Of a stretch of 24,518 nucleotides of DNA, positions 1 through 7,754 are shown one piece after another; within the stretch, counting starts at the first letter, position 1; each line of letters starts with the position of its first letter. The position numbers and the translations under genes are program-made. The notes beneath the pieces are model-generated. The model was given only the letters and a program-made list of their open reading frames with translations, was not told where the DNA came from and searched no databases. The stretch comes from Hysterium pulicare CBS 123377 (taxonomy: Eukaryota > Ascomycota > Dothideomycetes > Hysteriales > Hysteriaceae). The stretch covers positions 1-24,518 of the forward strand of contig AJFK01001052.1 of NCBI GenBank assembly GCA_000467715.1, written 5' to 3'.

Positions 1-285
1 TAGCCTTCTTCTTTATCTTTGTTCAGACTTCAGAGGTAGTAGATTGAATAGTATAGTAGACTAGAATAATAAGTTATTATAGCATTAAGACTTTTTATAA
101 ACCACTAAATATAAGATCCGACCAGGTCCCCTTATTTACAATAAAATATCATAGAATCTACATGAATCTTAGTGGTAAAACCAAAAGAATTAGTGTTAAT
201 TCATGTATATAAAGCACGATGATTGATCATATAGAAACCACCATGTTTCATCGTAGTGCGAAACCCGTAGGGCCCTCACCCCTTC
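1..285. other. AT-rich left flank, no gene seen
   Basis: This stretch is AT-rich and holds no convincing open frame on either strand. A TATATAAA string at 206-213 resembles the boxes of the array that follows. It has no ACGTAA-type element at the expected distance, so it is not called as a unit. Confidence 0.5.
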
Positions 286-330
286 TGCGTAACGTTCTTC
301 CAGCCTCCAATAGTGTCATCTATATAAACC
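286..330 (+). promoter_or_regulatory. Array promoter, unit 1
   Basis: TGCGTAACG at 286-294 is followed by CATCTATATAAACC at 317-330. The string CTATATAAACC is shared with units 3, 4 and 6. Confidence 0.55.
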
Positions 331-766
331 CCTAGATGCTTTGAGAATCTTACTCCAAACGCTCTCCAGCTCGAAATGCCGGCATCATAAACCGGACCAT
401 ACATCTAGTCATGAGTCTGGCAGCTTTTTGTAACCTACACAACCAAAATAGTGCTGCGATTTACTCCATGGAATGATGTTGGCTGCTCTACAAGAGTCAA
501 GCAGTGTAGAAACTCCCCATCTTGGAATATCAGCGCTCCAAAGCAAGACAAAGGCCGTGGCATAGTAAGTCTGGGGGCTAGCATATACATTAGTCCTTGA
601 TCGGTGTTCAGCTTCAACTTTTGAGCTAATGAAGATGCTCACCAAACGACAAGCGTCTCGTCATCGCTAGCACCTCGAGCCTTTGCCCAACTTCAGCTCT
701 TTCTTCTGGCCTGCTCCTCGGCTACTCCAATAAAATTCCCACCGCATATACATCAGGATGATGAGT
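286..766 (+). repeat. Array unit 1 (weakest body match)
   Basis: The promoter is clear, but the body aligns poorly with the other units. A GGATGATGAG string at 756-765 matches the end motif of other units. No convincing + strand open frame starts near the expected transcription start. The 78-codon open frame on the opposite strand at 409-645 has no supporting features. Confidence 0.4.
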
Positions 767-1036
767 ATATATCATCTTCAGCTATTAATATAACGCCCTC
801 ATACTTGCTTCTTTCATGGTAGTGAACAAGGATGTATCATAGTAACCAGGGCTTGACACCAACCCGCTCAGAACAGCAACTCTCTAGCTTCCAGGCTTTT
901 ATATTTGGGCTACTCAGTATGTGAGTAAAGTCAAGTAAAGGGATGTGGTGTAAGGGCCCATGGTATTATCTATACCTTGGAGAGCATGTCCATGGATGTA
1001 GGGCGTTAACATCACTCAATTACTTCTCCTCTTATG

Positions 1037-1079
1037 GCATAACTCATCTTGACTTTCCTCAAAATCGCCTATATAACAG
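1037..1079 (+). promoter_or_regulatory. Array promoter, unit 2 (degenerate)
   Basis: GCATAAC at 1037-1043 and CTATATAAC around 1069-1077 keep the array spacing of 33 bp, but both elements depart from the consensus. Confidence 0.35.
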
Positions 1080-1390
1080 CCAGTCTTGCGATCTCACTCC
1101 ACCTCAGCCACCTGCCACCCGACATCCAGAAAGTGTTAAAGCTATCCACTCCGGAAAACTCAAGCTTTGTGGAGTCATGTGGAACTCCCTGAGCTGGAGC
1201 GCCAAAACCTCGACCAAATGATCTGGCCATGGCGCGCGTGTCGGAACTGGACCTAATACTACATGTCGACAGGCCTCGGTAAGCATGCTGATGCTGAGGC
1301 TCTGGAACCCGAAAAGTATTGCGAAGGTCTTCGTTAGAACCATCGGAGGGCAATGACGACCATTATCATTCAAAATCATTGATCGTCTAC
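1037..1390 (+). repeat. Array unit 2 (degenerate)
   Basis: The body keeps a recognisable form of the shared block near 1178-1212, with ATGTGGAACTCC followed by GAGCTGGAGCGCCAAAACC. In the frame used by units 6 and 7 it begins V-E-L, then diverges. A region rich in ATTATCATTC near 1362-1372 is the complement of the usual end motif. No intact open frame from a plausible start was seen. Confidence 0.4.
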
Positions 1391-1491
1391 CCTGAGAGAG
1401 AGCTATCAGATCATCGATGTCTTCGTATTGCGTTTTCCGCCAGGAAGTAAAGTCAGTATGATCTCACTGATGCGCCTTATTCTCCCCTTCC

Positions 1492-1540
1492 TCACGTAAC
1501 ACTCCTAGCTTAGCCCCCTGCAGAATCACCTATATAAACC
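1492..1540 (+). promoter_or_regulatory. Array promoter, unit 3
   Basis: TCACGTAAC at 1492-1500 lies 39 bp before TATATAAACC at 1531-1540. ACGTAA and ACGTAAC sites are typical of fungal bZIP factor targets; the actual factor is not known. Confidence 0.6.
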
Positions 1541-1995
1541 TCCGAACCCTCTTGTCATCGTCTCTTTCACACCCACTGGATACAAATCAGTTAGTCTCAA
1601 TATCACCAACTAAGGGTGTAGACACACACTCGGGTGCCTGCGGCTTCCGTTCCTGGAAAATTGAAGCCAGACACCAACTACCACCGTATGAATGGTGTGA
1701 GTATCTGGACTTGTCAATCACCGCCACAACCAAGAGCAATGTTGTGGGACCCGGCTCGTTCGGGCTTCAGACGAGATGACTTCATTGGAACGGTGAAGTT
1801 TCGGAGTGTTGGGGGTAAAACTGCTTTGATCCAACAGCAACACATGAAACCGATCAATGGTGCGAGTATTGGAGTTGGACTCGTTTCCAAAATGTCAAAG
1901 GGCTTGAACCGTATGGTGGTACTAGGATGTTGCACTTGGAAATATGGGATTGGAACTGGGGAAATAATGATGATCAACAGCACTGCCATTACTAA
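1492..1995 (+). repeat. Array unit 3
   Basis: The shared block is at 1856-1894 and carries a TTGGA...TCCAA pairing. An earlier, weaker copy starts near 1690, where a T-GAATGGTGTGAGTAT string mirrors the later CAATGGTGCGAGTAT. The end motif AATAATGATGATC lies at about 1963-1975. A possible coding frame is listed separately. Confidence 0.5.
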
Positions 1996-2005
1996 AAGGC
2001 CATAA
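1688..2005 (+). CDS. Possible small orphan protein of array unit 3
   Basis: This 105-codon open frame starts at the first ATG of the frame, about 150 bp after the TATA box. I do not recognise the product. It contains two related segments, one opening N-G-V-S-I-W and one opening N-G-A-S-I-G-V-G-L-V-S-K. In the second, S-K is followed by eight residues and then V-V-L. The same S-K, eight residues, V-x-L arrangement is seen in the translations of units 6 and 7 with different leucine codons. It has no signal peptide or known domain. A short open frame by chance is quite possible, so this is tentative. Confidence 0.3.
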   Translation: MNGVSIWTCQSPPQPRAMLWDPARSGFRRDDFIGTVKFRSVGGKTALIQQQHMKPINGASIGVGLVSKMSKGLNRMVVLGCCTWKYGIGTGEIMMINSTAITKRP

Positions 2006-2208
2006 CCATCAATTATAGGAAACTCATAAAGCTGCTCCATCAATCCTCCCAGGAAGCATCTCACCACGGGCTCCAAAGCAACTTCAGCAAACCAAAGCGC
2101 CGAAGAGATGTAATAACTCTGGCCTTGTACTTAACCTCCCCAAAGAGCGCAGGAAAATGGCAGAAGAAAATATTCGTAGCTGCGAAATACTCGAGCTCAT
2201 CCTCTCTC

Positions 2209-2255
2209 TTACGTAATATAATTCTCACAGTCCCTCATACTCATCTATATAAACC
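2209..2255 (+). promoter_or_regulatory. Array promoter, unit 4
   Basis: TTACGTAAT at 2209-2217 is followed 37 bp later by TATATAAACC at 2246-2255. A long C/T-rich stretch at 2256-2296 would contain the transcription start. TTACGTAA is a full bZIP-type palindrome. Confidence 0.65.
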
Positions 2256-2605
2256 TCCATCCCCCTCCCTCAACCCCATCTCCACTTCCCCTCCTAGCTC
2301 GTAGACAGCGCTATGACCAAAAACACCAGCATTGCCGATGGTTTTTTGGCGCTCTCCATCGTCGAAGCCTCATTCTCCCAAATCTCATGTTTGCGTGCTG
2401 CCTCTTTCGAGAACGTACAGGACACAATCTGTGATATGGGAGTGCTAGAGTAGATCCGGCTCCAAACAGCGGCACAAGGAGGACATGGTGGTGTTGGGGA
2501 TGAGAGACCTTGCAATAGCGGATAATGAGGCTGGTATGTTATATGGAAGGGTGGAGATGAGCAACAATACTTATAATGATAAAGGTAATCATTACAAGAA
2601 GATTT
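2209..2605 (+). repeat. Array unit 4
   Basis: A GACCAAAAACA string near 2315 recurs in unit 8 near 4717. It is followed in both by ATGGT...TCTCC...CGAAGC, which is also seen in unit 7 near 4119. The shared block at 2432-2470 ends in GGCTCCAAACAGC. In one frame S-K, seven residues and M-V-V-L-G follow. The first ATG after the promoter (2313) opens only 46 codons, ending at TAG 2451-2453 inside the block, so the unit may be broken or non-coding. An ATAATGATAAAGG motif near 2573 marks the end. Confidence 0.5.
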
Positions 2606-2848
2606 AATTCCCAATAAAAGCACTCCTCTTACTCTCCTAAAGAACGTTCCACTGCAAACGTAATCTCAGAACGCAGAATAGAGAGCATCACAGATATTCA
2701 GACGCCTGGTCCTTCGACTTGATGGTCCCGAAGAGTGGAGCTAGATAGACGAAGAAATGTCCTTGAGCACGGAACATTGAATAGACCTCCTAGCTCGATC
2801 CTAATCTATAATTTTTACAAATAGTAGGTGACCAGCTCCGTCCCTTCT

Positions 2849-2895
2849 TTACGTAACATCTCTCTCACTCTACCTCTGAAGCATCTATATAAGCC
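2849..2895 (+). promoter_or_regulatory. Array promoter, unit 5
   Basis: TTACGTAAC at 2849-2857 lies 37 bp before TATATAAG at 2886-2893. The following C/T-rich stretch, ending CCACTTCTCCTCTACACC, is nearly repeated in units 6 and 8. Confidence 0.65.
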
Positions 2896-3265
2896 ACCTT
2901 TCCCCTCCCTCAATCTCATCCCCACTTCTCCTCTACACCATCATTTCAATGGTTCTGGAATCATAATACCAAAGCTTCTCACTTTCATGGTATCGGCAGT
3001 TCCCCGCCGTCTTTAAAGCACCAAACGCGCATGCTGCTACGCATGCGTGGCGCACCTGTTGGCTCGTGCCACAATAAAAAGCACTGGATTCACTCGAAAT
3101 GTGGGTTGTTTTAGAGCAGATCGGGCTCCAAAACCGTCCATGGTACTGTCAGCACATGGTGACTTTGTGGGTGCGGGACTCAGAAGTAGTGGATGTCCAG
3201 GCTCGATTGGAATACGAAAGGGCGATGGTGACCAGCATCCTTTCTCATGATAAAGATGATCTTGA
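2849..3265 (+). repeat. Array unit 5
   Basis: CATGGTATCGGCAGTTCCCC near 2987 and TTTAAAGCACCAAACGCG near 3012 match unit 7 (near 4118 and 4141). TTGGCTCGTGCCA at 3059-3071 matches TTGGCTCTTGCCAA of unit 7. The shared block is at 3098-3135 and has lost one base relative to unit 6. An open frame at 3099-3308 translates the block with M-V-T-L-W, then D-S-E-V, comparable to V-V-L-W, D-F-E-V in unit 8. Its start is far from the promoter, so it is not called as a gene. Confidence 0.5.
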
Positions 3266-3358
3266 CAAAAGCAATCCTTGTCGATATCAGAAGTACCCAT
3301 CTCCCTGACGATACCTTGCACGACTGCATGACATCGCCAGCTTTCTCCTTTCCCTCTC

Positions 3359-3406
3359 TTACATAATACCATCCCCTAATCTCCTCCAGACCCGTCTATA
3401 TAAACC
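3359..3406 (+). promoter_or_regulatory. Array promoter, unit 6
   Basis: TTACATAAT at 3359-3367 lies 38 bp before TATATAAACC at 3397-3406. The upstream element has one change from TTACGTAAT. Confidence 0.55.
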
Positions 3407-3444
3407 TGCTCCCCTCCTTCGATCTACCTTTCTTCTCCTCTACA

Positions 3445-3711
3445 ATGCTCCAGGGATGCGGCTGGGGCCAAAACCTTCCTGACTCCTTCTGTATGAGATT
3501 TGAGTCCCTCGTCAAATTCCAAATTCCGCTGCACAGTTCTCCGATAGTGTGGTCTTTGTCTCTCGCCAAGTTCTTGAAAATACAGCTTAATGTGGAGCTT
3601 GTTGGAGCTGGATTGACCTCCAAAATCCGTTTGGCTCCATGTTGTATGGTGGGACTTGGAATCCGGAGCTTCGCCTCATCCGTAGACTTGGCTGGGGATG
3701 AAGCAAGTTGA
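3445..3711 (+). CDS. Possible small orphan protein of array unit 6
   Basis: This is the best protein candidate of the array: 88 codons from an ATG about 48 bp after the TATA box, so the leader would be only some 15-20 nt. The start context is CTCTACAATGC. I do not recognise the protein. Residues near 51-60 read L-S-L-A-K-F-L-K. They are followed by N-V-E-L-V-G-A-G-L-T-S-K, eight residues, then V-G-L-G. The unit 7 translation aligns without gaps over this part (L-P-K, E-S-V-E-A-G-L-S-S-K, eight residues, V-V-L). There is no signal peptide or intron. Stops in other units and the absence of a shared start codon weigh against it. Confidence 0.35.
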   Translation: MLQGCGWGQNLPDSFCMRFESLVKFQIPLHSSPIVWSLSLAKFLKIQLNVELVGAGLTSKIRLAPCCMVGLGIRSFASSVDLAGDEAS

Positions 3712-3876
3712 CTTGATAATGATGAATACCTTCACTAACCAGGATCTAACTAAAGTCAAAACTGAGCTCCATTATCGCATCGGAAGTATTTCTACCCCAC
3801 CCCATCCCAAGTCCGGAAACCTCGAATCAGGCATAAACACATGACCTATAACCCTCCCCTTTCTTCATTCCCGTGA

Positions 3877-3925
3877 CTACGATAACATCTCCCCTCGGTC
3901 TCTTTCAAGACTGTCTATATAAAGC
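3877..3925 (+). promoter_or_regulatory. Array promoter, unit 7
   Basis: CTACGATAAC at 3877-3886 and TATATAAAGCC from 3916 keep the 39-bp spacing. The upstream element has an inserted or changed base relative to TACGTAAC. Confidence 0.5.
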
Positions 3926-4388
3926 CTCATCACCACCTCACCCTCTCTCACTTCTTCTCCTCCACACCCACTCGAGGATGTCAATGGATCAAACACTCAA
4001 CATATCACATCAAGAATGATGACTCTTCATGCAAAGCACCAAGACTATCCCTTAACTACAAATGCGCGGAAAACCCCTTGATGTGGAGAGTGTTCAACCC
4101 AGCAGCAAAGTACGTCATGGTTTTCGGGTTCTCTCTGCCTTGAAGCACCAAATTTTCCAGAGTCGTTTACCATGTCTGCGTCTTGGCTCTTGCCAAAATC
4201 TTTCAAAAGACTCCAAGATGCGGAGAGCGTGGAGGCTGGATTGAGTTCCAAAAACAGCCCAGTACAAGTAATATGGGTGGTGCTGGATTTCGAGACTTGG
4301 GAAGTGATTGGGAAGGCTGGGTTGGATGATGGAATAAGTAAGGAGAAAGGTGAAGTGCATGATTGAGAAGAAATGATGATCATGATAA
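3877..4388 (+). repeat. Array unit 7 (two body copies)
   Basis: The block occurs twice, at 4080-4115 and 4217-4259. The first reads D-V-E-S-V-Q-P-S-S-K and the second D-A-E-S-V-E-A-G-L-S-S-K; the indel between them is a multiple of three. An open frame from ATG 4172 to 4366 covers the second copy only. The DNA around 4169-4236 can fold into an imperfect hairpin: GCGTCTTGG pairs with CCAAGATGC, and inside it TTGGC pairs with GCCAA. The end motif ATGATGATCATGATAAG is at 4373-4389. Confidence 0.5.
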
Positions 4389-4607
4389 GCAAGGCCATTT
4401 TCATTTTTTAAAGACATCTTTCTTCCACATGCTAGGGAAGGAAGCAGCCGGAAAGACATGTGGTAGATATGCTCTTGTATTTGGTCTCGCCGGACCCCAA
4501 GAGTGGAGTCAGATCTCCTCGAAGAGATTCTCGCTCATGGAAGATAGACGACGTTTTATAGCTCCACAGTTACGCTCAAGCATGGGCATCTGATTCCTTT
4601 TCTCTTC

Positions 4608-4655
4608 TTACGTAACCACATCTCTCCCTCCTCACCCAGAAATCCTCTATAAACC
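4608..4655 (+). promoter_or_regulatory. Array promoter, unit 8
   Basis: TTACGTAAC at 4608-4616 is followed 38 bp later by TCTATAAACC at 4646-4655. The TATA box is shortened (CTATAAA), but the downstream C/T-rich leader is well kept. Confidence 0.6.
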
Positions 4656-5306
4656 TTCCTCCCCTCCATCAACTCCCGCCCACTTCTCCTCCACACCACC
4701 TCAAGGGAACCGAGAGACCAAAAACAACGACCAGGTTCTTTTTTCATGGTCCTGCGGGTCTCTCCACCTCGAAGCATCAGAAAGCGTAAGACCTCTCTAC
4801 CCATAGTGTGGCACTCCTCTTGCCAAAGGTTGATGTTAAAAAGGGTCATGTGGAGAGTCCGGGGCCGGGACCCAGCTTCGAAATCGATGGATCGCTTCAC
4901 CATTATGTGGTGCTGTGGACTTCGGACTTCGAAGTACCAAAACTCCGAACAAATGAAACCGATGGTGCGCGCGCTGGCTGTCGTCAAAGCAAGAACATCC
5001 TGAAAATGTGGAGATCTTTGGAGTAGAGTAAGCTCCTAAATGCTTGAAACGGAACGAATTAATGGGTGCGTTGTGGCTTTGGGACTTCGACGTACCAAAA
5101 CTACTTACTCTCGCGAATTTATGGGGCCTGCGTTGCCTTCTTTCAACGGCTCTAGGATTTACGTTTGATGTGGAGAGAGCTCTGGTTCGGATCGATCGAG
5201 CCAAAAGACCACAACGGGACTTCATGTGATGTTTTAGGGTTTTGGTGTTGGGGTTTGGAAGCATTAATAACGGAGTTGGAGCGGTGCTAGTGCTGGTGAT
5301 GATGAA
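4608..5306 (+). repeat. Array unit 8 (three body copies)
   Basis: This is the longest unit. The shared block is present three times, at 4847-4890, 5004-5040 and 5167-5209. A 21-bp segment at 4924-4944 recurs at 5082-5102 with one mismatch, 158 bp apart. Two open frames cover parts of it (4746-5003 from an ATG, and 5044-5229 from a non-ATG start), and neither covers all copies. Both frames over the 21-bp repeat read D-F-[E/D]-V-P-K-L. The unit ends with GGTGATGATGAAGATAG at 5295-5311. Confidence 0.5.
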
Positions 5307-5312
5307 GATAGA

Positions 5313-5650
5313 CATCATTATCACCCTCATCACCGCCTCTCCATAATGCTCTTCACTACTACTACCACCAATAGCGACTCACTACTCCTATAGCAACTCT
5401 TTTTTCACCATAACATAACCCCACTCCTCAGCCGCCGCCCCGACAGCACCAGATCCATAGAACGAAGTGGGATGACGTGGTTATGGATCTTATATCCAAA
5501 GCTCTCAGCAAAAGAGCACTTCGAGTGCTTACCTCTAAGCATATGGACAACGCCCATGGCCGATGCTGAAGGTGAAGAGAAAGAAAATTCCTCGGGGCAG
5601 AGCGAGATTTATATAGATGCTGGAGCGAGGCGGTCAAGACGTACACGTGA
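5313..5650 (-). repeat. Inverted array unit 9
   Basis: Read on the minus strand, this begins with the promoter at 5650-5608 and runs toward the rest of the array. The body holds ATGGATCTGGTGCTGTCGGG (complement of about 5437-5456), distantly like the ATG-G-x-x-CTG-GTG strings of other units. It ends in GGTGATGAGGGTGATAATG, complement of about 5316-5334. An open frame of 72 codons at 5428-5646 would start upstream of the TATA box and so is not a good gene candidate. Confidence 0.45.
5608..5650 (-). promoter_or_regulatory. Array promoter, unit 9 (minus strand)
   Basis: On the minus strand TCACGTGTAC (5650-5641) precedes CATCTATATAAATC (about 5620-5606) by 35 bp. The string CATCTATATAAA is identical to that of units 1 and 4. 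Confidence 0.5.
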
Positions 5651-5858: not shown

Positions 5859-7754
5859 CTACTTAAACTGATCCTCGGTAACCCCCTTCCCCATAGCCGC
5901 CGTCGAGCTCACCCCTCCACTAACCATCTTCAGCAACCCATCCACATAATTCGCCCCGCTCCACTTCTGATGCGTAAGCACATCGACCTTATTCTCGGCC
6001 TCCGGTTCCTGGATAATCTCCCCGTAGGCCCGCATCCCCTGTTTGGCGTACGCCTTGGAGAAGGTGTCGGCCATGAGCGCCGTTTGGTGCAGGCCGGCCA
6101 GCGTGATGAATTGCCAGCAGTAGCCGAGGGAGGCGAGCCGCTTGATGTAGGTTTCTTGCTCCGAGCGCGGCATCGCGGTTTTCCAGTTGAAGGAGGGGGA
6201 GAGGTTGTAGGAGAGTCTGGGGGGAATGTTAGTATACCCACTCTCTTTGAATATCGGATGATAGAGGGAGAAGGAAGTTTGGGATGGGTGGAAGACTCAC
6301 TTTTGCTCGGGCCAAACGGCATGTACTCCCTCAGCGAACTCCTTCGCCTGCGCATAATCTGGCAGTTTACTCTCCATCCAGATCATATCCGCGTAGGGTG
6401 CGTATGCGATCGCGCGGTTAACAGCACACTGGCATCCACCCTGGTATCTATAGTACCCCTCCCGCGTCCTCGCAGCGTCCCAGTTAAAATGTACATCGAC
6501 GCCTGTCAGACCTTTAGCAATTGCCCTAGCCTCCGCATTACTCTTTCCCTTGGATTGCGTCAAAAATTCGGAGATTAATGTCTCTTTGTTCACGTGCACA
6601 CCGGCGTTGATGGTGTCGATGACGGCTTCGTGGAAGAGTTTTAGACCGGCTTCGCGTGTCCAGGCGTCTTCGATGGCTTGGAGTTCGGGGCCGGATTTGC
6701 CGGCATTTTCGGCGGCTATCATGAGGTCGGCGAGGGGTTGGAGAGCTGGGTTTGTGGCGCCTAGTATGTAGTGATGGTCTCGGTGATCGATGGTAGAGGT
6801 GATGAGAGTGGCGGCTTCGGAGTCAGTGCGAGCAACAGCTAGGAGGTCGGTGCCTGTATATAACAGTCAGTAAACCGCTGTAGGGCATAGGGCTGTCAAC
6901 CGTCCACAGGCTGGTAGCTAACTCCTCACTTACCCATGATATCAGCTTGTGCCCTGATCGCCACCAATCGATTGATATGCTCGCTAATAGGCACGAGAAC
7001 TTTTCCAGCCATGTGTCCGCATTTCTTTGTACCAGGAGCCTGATCCTCGATATGAATTCCCGCAGCTCCCTTCTCAATGAACAATTTCGTGAGCTTCATA
7101 ATAGCGGTCAAACCACCATGTCCGGTATCCGCATCCGCAACAATGGGGCGAAGGAAGTCGGTATTGGCGACATTGGCTCGTTGGGCTTTTGGGGTAGAGA
7201 GGCGTTCTTCGCGTTGCTTTCGGTCGTGGAAGAGTTGTGCCATGAATAGATGTTGGACTTTGTTTGGTACGGTAGTCTATAATCATGAGCGTCAATGTTT
7301 GCAATCAAGGAGGTACAGAAGACATACCATAGGATAATCCGCGAGATCTGGTCCTGGCTCATCTGTAGATGAAGCTGTTGACGAGCATTGCCAGCCAGAA
7401 ACATATACAGTATCCAAGTATTTAGCCATCTGGGTGACCATGACAGGATCAAGACAGCCATAGGTAAAACTTGCTTCTCCATTCTATATTTTCCATCAGC
7501 AAAATTACCCCAAAACACTCAATACCGCTGAATAGACCTACCTTGAATCTCCCCTCGACGATATCCCAAAGTTTCTTCGACATTTCATTGCCAGGGTAGG
7601 TAATCTTCAAATTACCCCTCTTCGACACAATCTGCTCTGCCGTAAAGGGTCTTCGCGTATATCGCCATCTTGAGTCACTCCACCACTTCTTTACAGCTTC
7701 GACGTCTTCTTGGTATCTCTGCTCCTCGGCGTCAAGATATGCAGATGAAGCCAT
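5859..7754 (-). CDS. icl1: Isocitrate lyase
   Basis: Isocitrate lyase splits isocitrate into glyoxylate and succinate, the first step of the glyoxylate cycle used for growth on acetate and fatty acids. Five exons join in frame: 7754-7542, 7483-7328, 7276-6934, 6853-6301 and 6216-5859. They give 540 residues, the usual length for the fungal enzyme. The introns are 58, 51, 80 and 84 nt with GT-AG ends. The catalytic signature K-K-C-G-H is at about residues 207-211, with C209 as the active-site cysteine. D-A-D-T-G-H-G-G at about 171-178 is a substrate and metal region. The N-terminus ([11 protein letters not shown]) and the W-S-G-A-N-Y region near the end are typical of fungal sequences. The protein ends D-Q-F-K, which is not a canonical SKL-type peroxisomal signal. 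It is single and not linked to other glyoxylate genes here. Confidence 0.97.

Follow-up and report, generated by a model that had tools for sequence, protein, structure and literature searches.

Introduction

Why would the promoters of tandem duplicates be preserved better than the sequences that lie downstream of them? The question is raised by an array at positions 286 to 5,650 of contig AJFK01001052.1 of the ascomycete Hysterium pulicare CBS 123377. The window analysed here is this entire contig (C574, 24,518 bp), in a genome assembly of 37.2 Mb and 596 contigs. A first-pass annotation of the window had proposed an array of units with a common core promoter and strongly diverged bodies, and suggested selection on transcription or fast-changing products. 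We suggest, with a probability of roughly 0.58, that the genome contains many such tandem arrays, composed of noncoding transcription units with a promoter each, in which the promoter and a few short boxes are kept. The promoter layout, the same-strand tandem order, the recurrence across the genome, the keeping of the TATA box, the lack of a coding signal and the recurrence of a ATGTGGAG box can all be read from the DNA itself. Below, we weigh these features against protein-coding genes, decayed duplicates and functions at the DNA level.

Conserved core promoters in the array

The array consists of eight direct units (TATA boxes from 321 to 4646, U1 to U8) and one inverted TATA box (5608-5615, minus strand, U9). 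Of the nine units with an ACGTAA element and a TATA box that were initially counted, the eight direct ones are confirmed as TATA units. The ninth unit is inverted and carries CACGTG as its upstream element instead of ACGTAA, and an ACGTAA-like element is found in six of the eight direct units. The TATA box TATATAAA is exact in five of the eight and present in a one-mismatch form in three (U2, U5 and U8; Table 1). ACGTAA is exact in four direct units and differs by one mismatch in two (U1 and U6), and no match with up to one mismatch was found in U2 or U7. The regular pairing of both elements holds as well, with the originally proposed spacing of 33-39 bp measured as 34-37 bp from start to start in the six units with an ACGTAA-like element. 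The array contains six such pairs on the plus strand and none on the minus strand. Shuffling of the array, the control put forward together with the initial claim, did not reproduce the regular pairs (mean 0.056 and maximum 2 in 500 runs). The other 18.8 kb of the window contain two pairs at the loosest setting and none at two stricter settings.

The promoters in the array are supported as being better kept than the bodies, as had been proposed. The best nine columns of the TATA core reach 0.963 among six units and 0.958 among all eight, and neutral drift, simulated in 60 runs at each of six settings, never attained the observed core. The models R1 and R2 were built from the window units, hence scores on these units hold by construction, with the exception of U9. 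The promoter model recovers U9, which was absent from its training, with 16 bits (E 2e-4). The upstream elements in the window (TTACGTAAC, TCACGTAAC, TTACATAAT) mostly retain a core resembling ACGT and appear to be a local variant of CACGTG or CACATG, with U9 carrying the common form.

Recurrence of the promoter layout across the genome

The 12-mer TCTATATAAACC occurs 37 times in the genome compared to 6 times in the reversed control, and the places are clustered on one strand. Five of these places were read and led to further tandem arrays. Including these, eight arrays besides the one in the window were read (loci L053-L057, L068, L069 and L070). Their upstream element is usually CACGTG or CACATG. 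The combination CACGTG-N25-45-TCTATATAAA is found 20 times in the genome (two of which share one TATA box) and never in the reversed control, and the wider CACGTG-N22-50-TATAWAAR is found 117 times compared to 14. A same-strand neighbor within 3 kb was found for 45 of 97 places, with random placement producing a mean of 0.76 and a maximum of 6 in 1000 trials; the 97 places are those listed out of the 117 counted, after three overlapping duplicates had been merged by hand, and contig ends were not taken into account in the random placement. The ratio of plus- to minus-strand TATA-like sites with a C/T-rich leader is 2:0 in L053, 9:0 in L054, 6:0 in L055, 4:0 in L056, 4:1 in L057, 2:1 in L068, 0:6 in L069 and 3:0 in L070.

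The placement of E-boxes (CACGTG, CACATG or CATGTG) is the strongest single sign of what appears to be a shared promoter grammar. A mechanical search on both strands of six arrays, which were chosen without an E-box criterion, detected 28 TATA sites with C/T-rich leaders. Of these, 18 have an E-box at -60 to -20, with 19 occurrences in this interval compared to 2 at -200 to -60. A hand-picked list for the same six arrays includes an E-box in 20 of 29 units, with 22 occurrences compared to 1. Clusters of TATA or promoter-model hits led to the choice of L053-L057, when E-boxes near some of their sites had already been seen, and L068 was found through a palindrome. L069 and L070 were fetched for CACGTG and are excluded from the placement count. 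The same design in many arrays was invisible to the first-pass annotation and makes the initial observation more interesting, because the array in the window is one instance of a genome-wide pattern.

Some sites show additional arrangements around the E-box. Divergent CACGTG-TATA pairs with one common CACGTG are located at C300:123021-123117 and C402:151673-151760, where one E-box may serve two units. The single sites C180:53286, C180:70040 and C208:40964 are alike over about 40 bp from the E-box to the TATA box (CACGTGAT.....TTATGTCA.CAGTCC), which suggests a second shared element. The words TTAGTCA or TGACTAA, which we take to be possible bZIP-type sites, recur between CACGTG and the TATA box at C112:85890, C454:107444 and others. 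At L023, a possible minus-strand unit near 2385, with CACGTG followed by TATAAATACC, faces a plus-strand unit at 1503. Short tandem repeats of the TGCGTC type (about 17 bp) are located upstream of the array on contig C497 (L055 1441-1658). Contig C459 ends in about 26 consecutive C next to an array unit (L069 3705-3730), which may be an assembly artefact.

Drifting bodies and recurrent short boxes

The bodies of U4 to U8 are related. Same-strand local alignments reach z-scores against shuffles of 25.6 (U4-U5), 18.7 (U4-U7), 14.6 (U6-U7) and 11.0 (U7-U8), with U4-U6 and U5-U6 as weak pairs (2.7 each). U8 holds the body block three times. The kinship of U2 (best z 5.9) and U3 (best z 4.0) to other units appears doubtful, because opposite-strand control pairs reach up to 4.9. 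Pairwise alignment against shuffles recovered no kinship of the U1 body to other units. Ordered blocks do survive in the window bodies as initially described, with an observed identity of 0.443. However, neutral simulation with indels at matched divergence and with the same alignment leaves blocks nearly as good. Simulated blocks equalled or exceeded the observed ones in preservation in 23 of 60 and 7 of 60 runs at settings on either side of the observed identity (0.448 and 0.439, respectively), and did so in 14 of 25 and 2 of 25 runs of an earlier, coarser simulation. The surviving blocks alone therefore provide little or no support for selection.

Short boxes recur across arrays with a strand preference. 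The comparison covers 48 units in nine arrays, selected manually on the basis of TATA-like sites, model hits, repeats and reading (no clear TATA box is present at L068:1193, and L054:2873 and L069:1691 are placed about 10 nt off). The distance between successive TATA boxes has a median of 535 bp (range 419-980, n = 39). TGTGGAG is found in sense orientation in 15 of the 48 units (antisense in 2, shuffle maximum 5) and ATGTGGA in 12 (antisense in 1, shuffle maximum 7). Both words were fixed before the arrays L069 and L070 were fetched, and the sequences were read before counting. One or the other word is present in sense in 7 of the 11 units of these fresh arrays (singly in 4 and 5 units) and in antisense in 1, and none of 500 shuffles reached 7. 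The box starts at +93 to +98 from the TATA box in four of six L069 units. A second word, TGATGA, often lies within an inverted repeat about 300-400 bp past the TATA box and is present in 26 of the 48 units (shuffle maximum 20). The paired form GATGA-N1-12-TCATC is present in 9 of 48 (shuffle maximum 3), and L068 was the array reached through a TGATGA...ATCATCA palindrome. As a hallmark of the arrays, this inverted repeat was rejected, with seven of eight new exact-palindrome loci lacking such units, save for a weak promoter-model hit in L059. TGATGA is kept as a weak element only.

Proposed mechanism and points against it

By its sequence, each unit carries a full promoter of the RNA polymerase II type, with an ACGT-core element, a TATATAAACC-like box about 30-45 bp downstream of it and a C/T-rich leader. 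The upstream element is CACGTG or CACATG in most arrays and TTACGTAAC in the window. E-boxes are bound by bHLH-type factors, and such a factor might act on the arrays. Polymerase II would then start downstream of the TATA box. The product would most likely be a noncoding transcript with a length of a few hundred bases, carrying a ATGTGGAG box on the sense strand and frequently TGATGA near its end. Because the body drifts, the useful part could be the act of transcription, a short RNA module or the total output of many units, as opposed to the full sequence. We infer selection on transcription, which was one of the two options raised initially. The arrays might even represent a class of fungal loci for noncoding RNA that is as yet undescribed, at what we consider slightly less than even odds. 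Such a class would comprise dozens of dispersed arrays and probably more than 100 E-box/TATA minigenes, with the promoter and the ATGTGGAG module under selection and the rest free to change.

Several results weigh against arrays of noncoding transcription units with kept promoters and boxes. The ACGTAA-TATA pair is not enriched across the genome (8 compared to 9 and 8 compared to 6 in the controls), and is therefore not supported as a genome-wide rule. Many E-box/TATA places are single and not part of arrays. TCTATATAAACC alone was rejected as diagnostic, with an 810-codon oxidase frame overlapping one site (L028). The bodies of different arrays are almost unalignable (mean sense score of 11.88 compared to 11.49 in antisense), and the sole match of the window body model in five arrays is weak (L054 4277-4406, 15.8 bits). 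TGATGA is not enriched in the fresh units, with 4 of 11 units matched by 140 of 500 shuffles. Hairpins do not in general exceed those of shuffles in strength (p <= 0.1 in 5 of 40 units and p <= 0.2 in 15), and the minimum free energy on the sense strand has z-scores of -0.88 to 1.25. The TTGGAG/CTCCAA arms pair with their own partner no better than with others (2809 of 5000 permutations as low). A conserved RNA fold was rejected, with an RNAalifold consensus of 0 pairs.

Protein-coding, decay and DNA-level explanations

The arrays could be clusters of very fast-evolving and possibly spliced small protein genes, such as secreted peptides, with promoters kept and products untraceable. A promoter with a leader is indeed what an ordinary fungal mRNA gene has, and several window units contain open frames of 85-105 codons. 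Among 54 units, which were likewise selected manually, the frame from the first ATG is also longer than in shuffled downstream sequence (35.4 compared to 20.8 codons). However, the three frames after the first ATG are of similar length (means of 34.4, 33.4 and 27.3, p 0.17), and no purine preference was found at -3 of the first ATG (21 of 54 units). Mismatches in the window bodies fall evenly on the three phases and no more than 62 of 398 gaps have a length divisible by three, thus the bodies do not evolve as codons. An autocorrelation (lag) test of the mismatches had little power to detect coding. Searches of Pfam retrieved no match at E 0.01 for seven array frames outside the window, and sub-threshold matches or none for seven array frames within it, hence nothing above curated cut-offs. 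Three further frames produced a TFIIIC zinc finger far outside the units, a sub-threshold match and no match, respectively. A word-based protein search found no homolog of the U6 frame. Minus-strand secreted proteins, considered for hydrophobic starts in U3, U7 and U8, were set aside as an effect of ATCAT repeats, and no Pfam match above cut-off was found. Overall, the units show no coding signal in unspliced frames, in the window or in other arrays. Small protein genes are hence an unlikely source of the arrays, and orphan effectors, which the first-pass annotation had named as possible products, were not borne out.

Pseudogenes or remains of mobile elements that decayed after tandem duplication would also produce diverged bodies, with promoters alike by common descent and low complexity. 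The bodies are close to the neutral expectation, and the same-strand tandem order fits repeated local duplication. Substitutions in the bodies show no excess of transitions (405 compared to 654 transversions), as in old saturated copies. Nevertheless, decay is improbable as an explanation given that the TATA core is better preserved than simulated drift would leave it, the E-box has a fixed place in arrays with unalignable bodies, and the ATGTGGAG box recurs in fresh arrays. A signature of repeat-induced point mutation (RIP) was not found either, with a composite index of -0.62 for 286-5600 being like the rest of the contig. A blastn-like search of the genome, which detects close copies only, recovered no second copy of the array.

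A role at the DNA level is rather improbable. The arrays would then be clusters of binding sites (E-box, TATA and inverted repeats) that function as enhancers, insulators or origins, and transcription would be incidental. The ACGT-core element and the TATA box are the best kept parts, and some downstream elements are inverted repeats, as expected for binding sites. Yet a plain cluster of binding sites needs no orientation, whereas the TATA box and leader are uniformly oriented in nearly every array and the body box is strand-biased. A mobile element has no support, as the search for close copies retrieved no second array.

Relation to known systems

No described family matching the arrays was found in Rfam, Pfam or the accessible parts of the open-licence literature, in line with the initial proposal. 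Rfam 15 covariance models had no match above the gathering cut-off in the window, and the array itself produced only three sub-threshold matches at E up to 5. The only Rfam match in the eight other array loci is a tRNA outside the units (L055 2283-2354).

Tandem arrays of snRNA, spliced-leader and snoRNA genes are organized head-to-tail, each gene having its own upstream element and start region, and their transcribed part is conserved and structured. The head-to-tail layout with individual promoters is shared with the arrays described here, but the transcribed part drifts in the latter, with no Rfam match and no consensus structure. Tandem genes for fungal effectors or small secreted proteins arise by local duplication and have fast-changing bodies as well as ordinary mRNA-type promoters. 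Duplication, changing bodies and the type of promoter are the same in the H. pulicare arrays, which differ in having no coding signal, start-codon context or protein relatives.

The nearest known layout, as far as described in the accessible parts of the sources, appears to be the Ruby-motif piRNA clusters of Caenorhabditis elegans, in which each unit is transcribed autonomously by RNA polymerase II, has a conserved motif upstream and yields a variable product (PMC6436959, PMC4015492, PMC7917550). Both systems combine clustering of units and conservation of the upstream motif with products that vary. The piRNA clusters belong to an animal and the Piwi pathway, and have products of 21-28 nt and a different motif, whereas the fungal units span about 535 bp and combine an E-box, a TATA box and a C/T-rich leader. 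The likeness concerns the logic of the layout, and no observation on the arrays speaks for their being Piwi-type small RNA clusters. The fungal arrays are known from DNA sequence alone, and at this level they present what defines putative clusters of individually promoted RNA polymerase II units, namely a core promoter for each unit, repeated on the same strand.

Features of the window and neighboring genes

The array is located between the 3' side of an isocitrate lyase gene and the end of the contig (Table 1). It may be truncated at the left end, because the window is the whole contig. The contig end ahead of the array (1-285) is AT-rich (GC 0.33) and contains TATATAAA at 206 without an upstream element or C/T-rich leader. 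The isocitrate lyase gene, with Pfam matches at 5859-6173 and 6297-6722, is encoded on the minus strand. Further genes in the window include DUF1365 matches, a fungal rhodopsin and a RasGAP. The best named relatives of the rhodopsin are from Lepidopterella palustris, Glonium stellatum and Lophium mytilinum (56-61% identity), indicative of a dothideomycete.

Table 1. Features of the tandem array in the window, with positions counted from the first base of the contig.
Feature	Positions	Strand	Remarks
U1 promoter and leader	273..380	+	GCGTAA 34 bp before TATATAAA at 321; U1 body homology not shown
Inverted repeat AGGATGATG...TATCATCTT, downstream part of U1	755..778	+	strength of about one shuffle in six
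U2 promoter and leader	1021..1134	+	GCATAAC, TATATAAC at 1070; weakest match of the upstream element
U2 body block	1161..1392	+	in R2 training set; pairwise support doubtful
U3 promoter and leader	1481..1595	+	ACGTAA, TATATAAA at 1531
U3 body block	1832..2005	+	in R2 training set; pairwise support doubtful
U4 promoter and leader	2197..2307	+	ACGTAA, TATATAAA at 2246
U4 body block	2370..2594	+	alignment and model match; inverted repeat TAATGAT...ATCATTA at 2574-2594
U5 promoter and leader	2837..2950	+	ACGTAA, TATATAAG at 2886
U5 body block	3022..3284	+	pairwise alignment and body model
U6 promoter and leader	3347..3444	+	ACATAA, TATATAAA at 3397
U6 body block	3519..3764	+	pairwise alignment and body model; ATGTGGAGC box near 3590
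U7 promoter and leader	3865..3979	+	ACGATAAC, TATATAAA at 3916
Extra ATGTGGAGAG box in U7	4081..4090	+	weak partial R2 match at 4067-4096, E 0.094
U7 body block	4149..4406	+	pairwise alignment and body model
U8 promoter and leader	4596..4706	+	ACGTAA, TCTATAAA at 4646
U8 body, three successive block copies (4782-4946, 4959-5107, 5121-5323)	4782..5323	+	body model; ATGTGGAGAG at 4848 and 5168
Inverted repeat GGTGATGATGA...TCATTATCACC, end of U8	5295..5325	+	inverted-repeat search
U9 inverted unit start, pointing into U8	5568..5649	-	CACGTG, TATATAAA at 5608-5615, leader; no minus-strand body match found with the body model

Implications

The promoter layout provides a rule to search other fungal genomes for an E-box followed after 22-50 bp by a TATA box and a C/T-rich leader, in tandem on one strand. 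If the units are transcribed, annotation based on similarity misses them, as only the promoter grammar reveals their presence. H. pulicare would then maintain a large set of similarly promoted and fast-changing noncoding transcripts. The arrays would exemplify, in a directly testable form, transcription that is under selection while most of its product is not.

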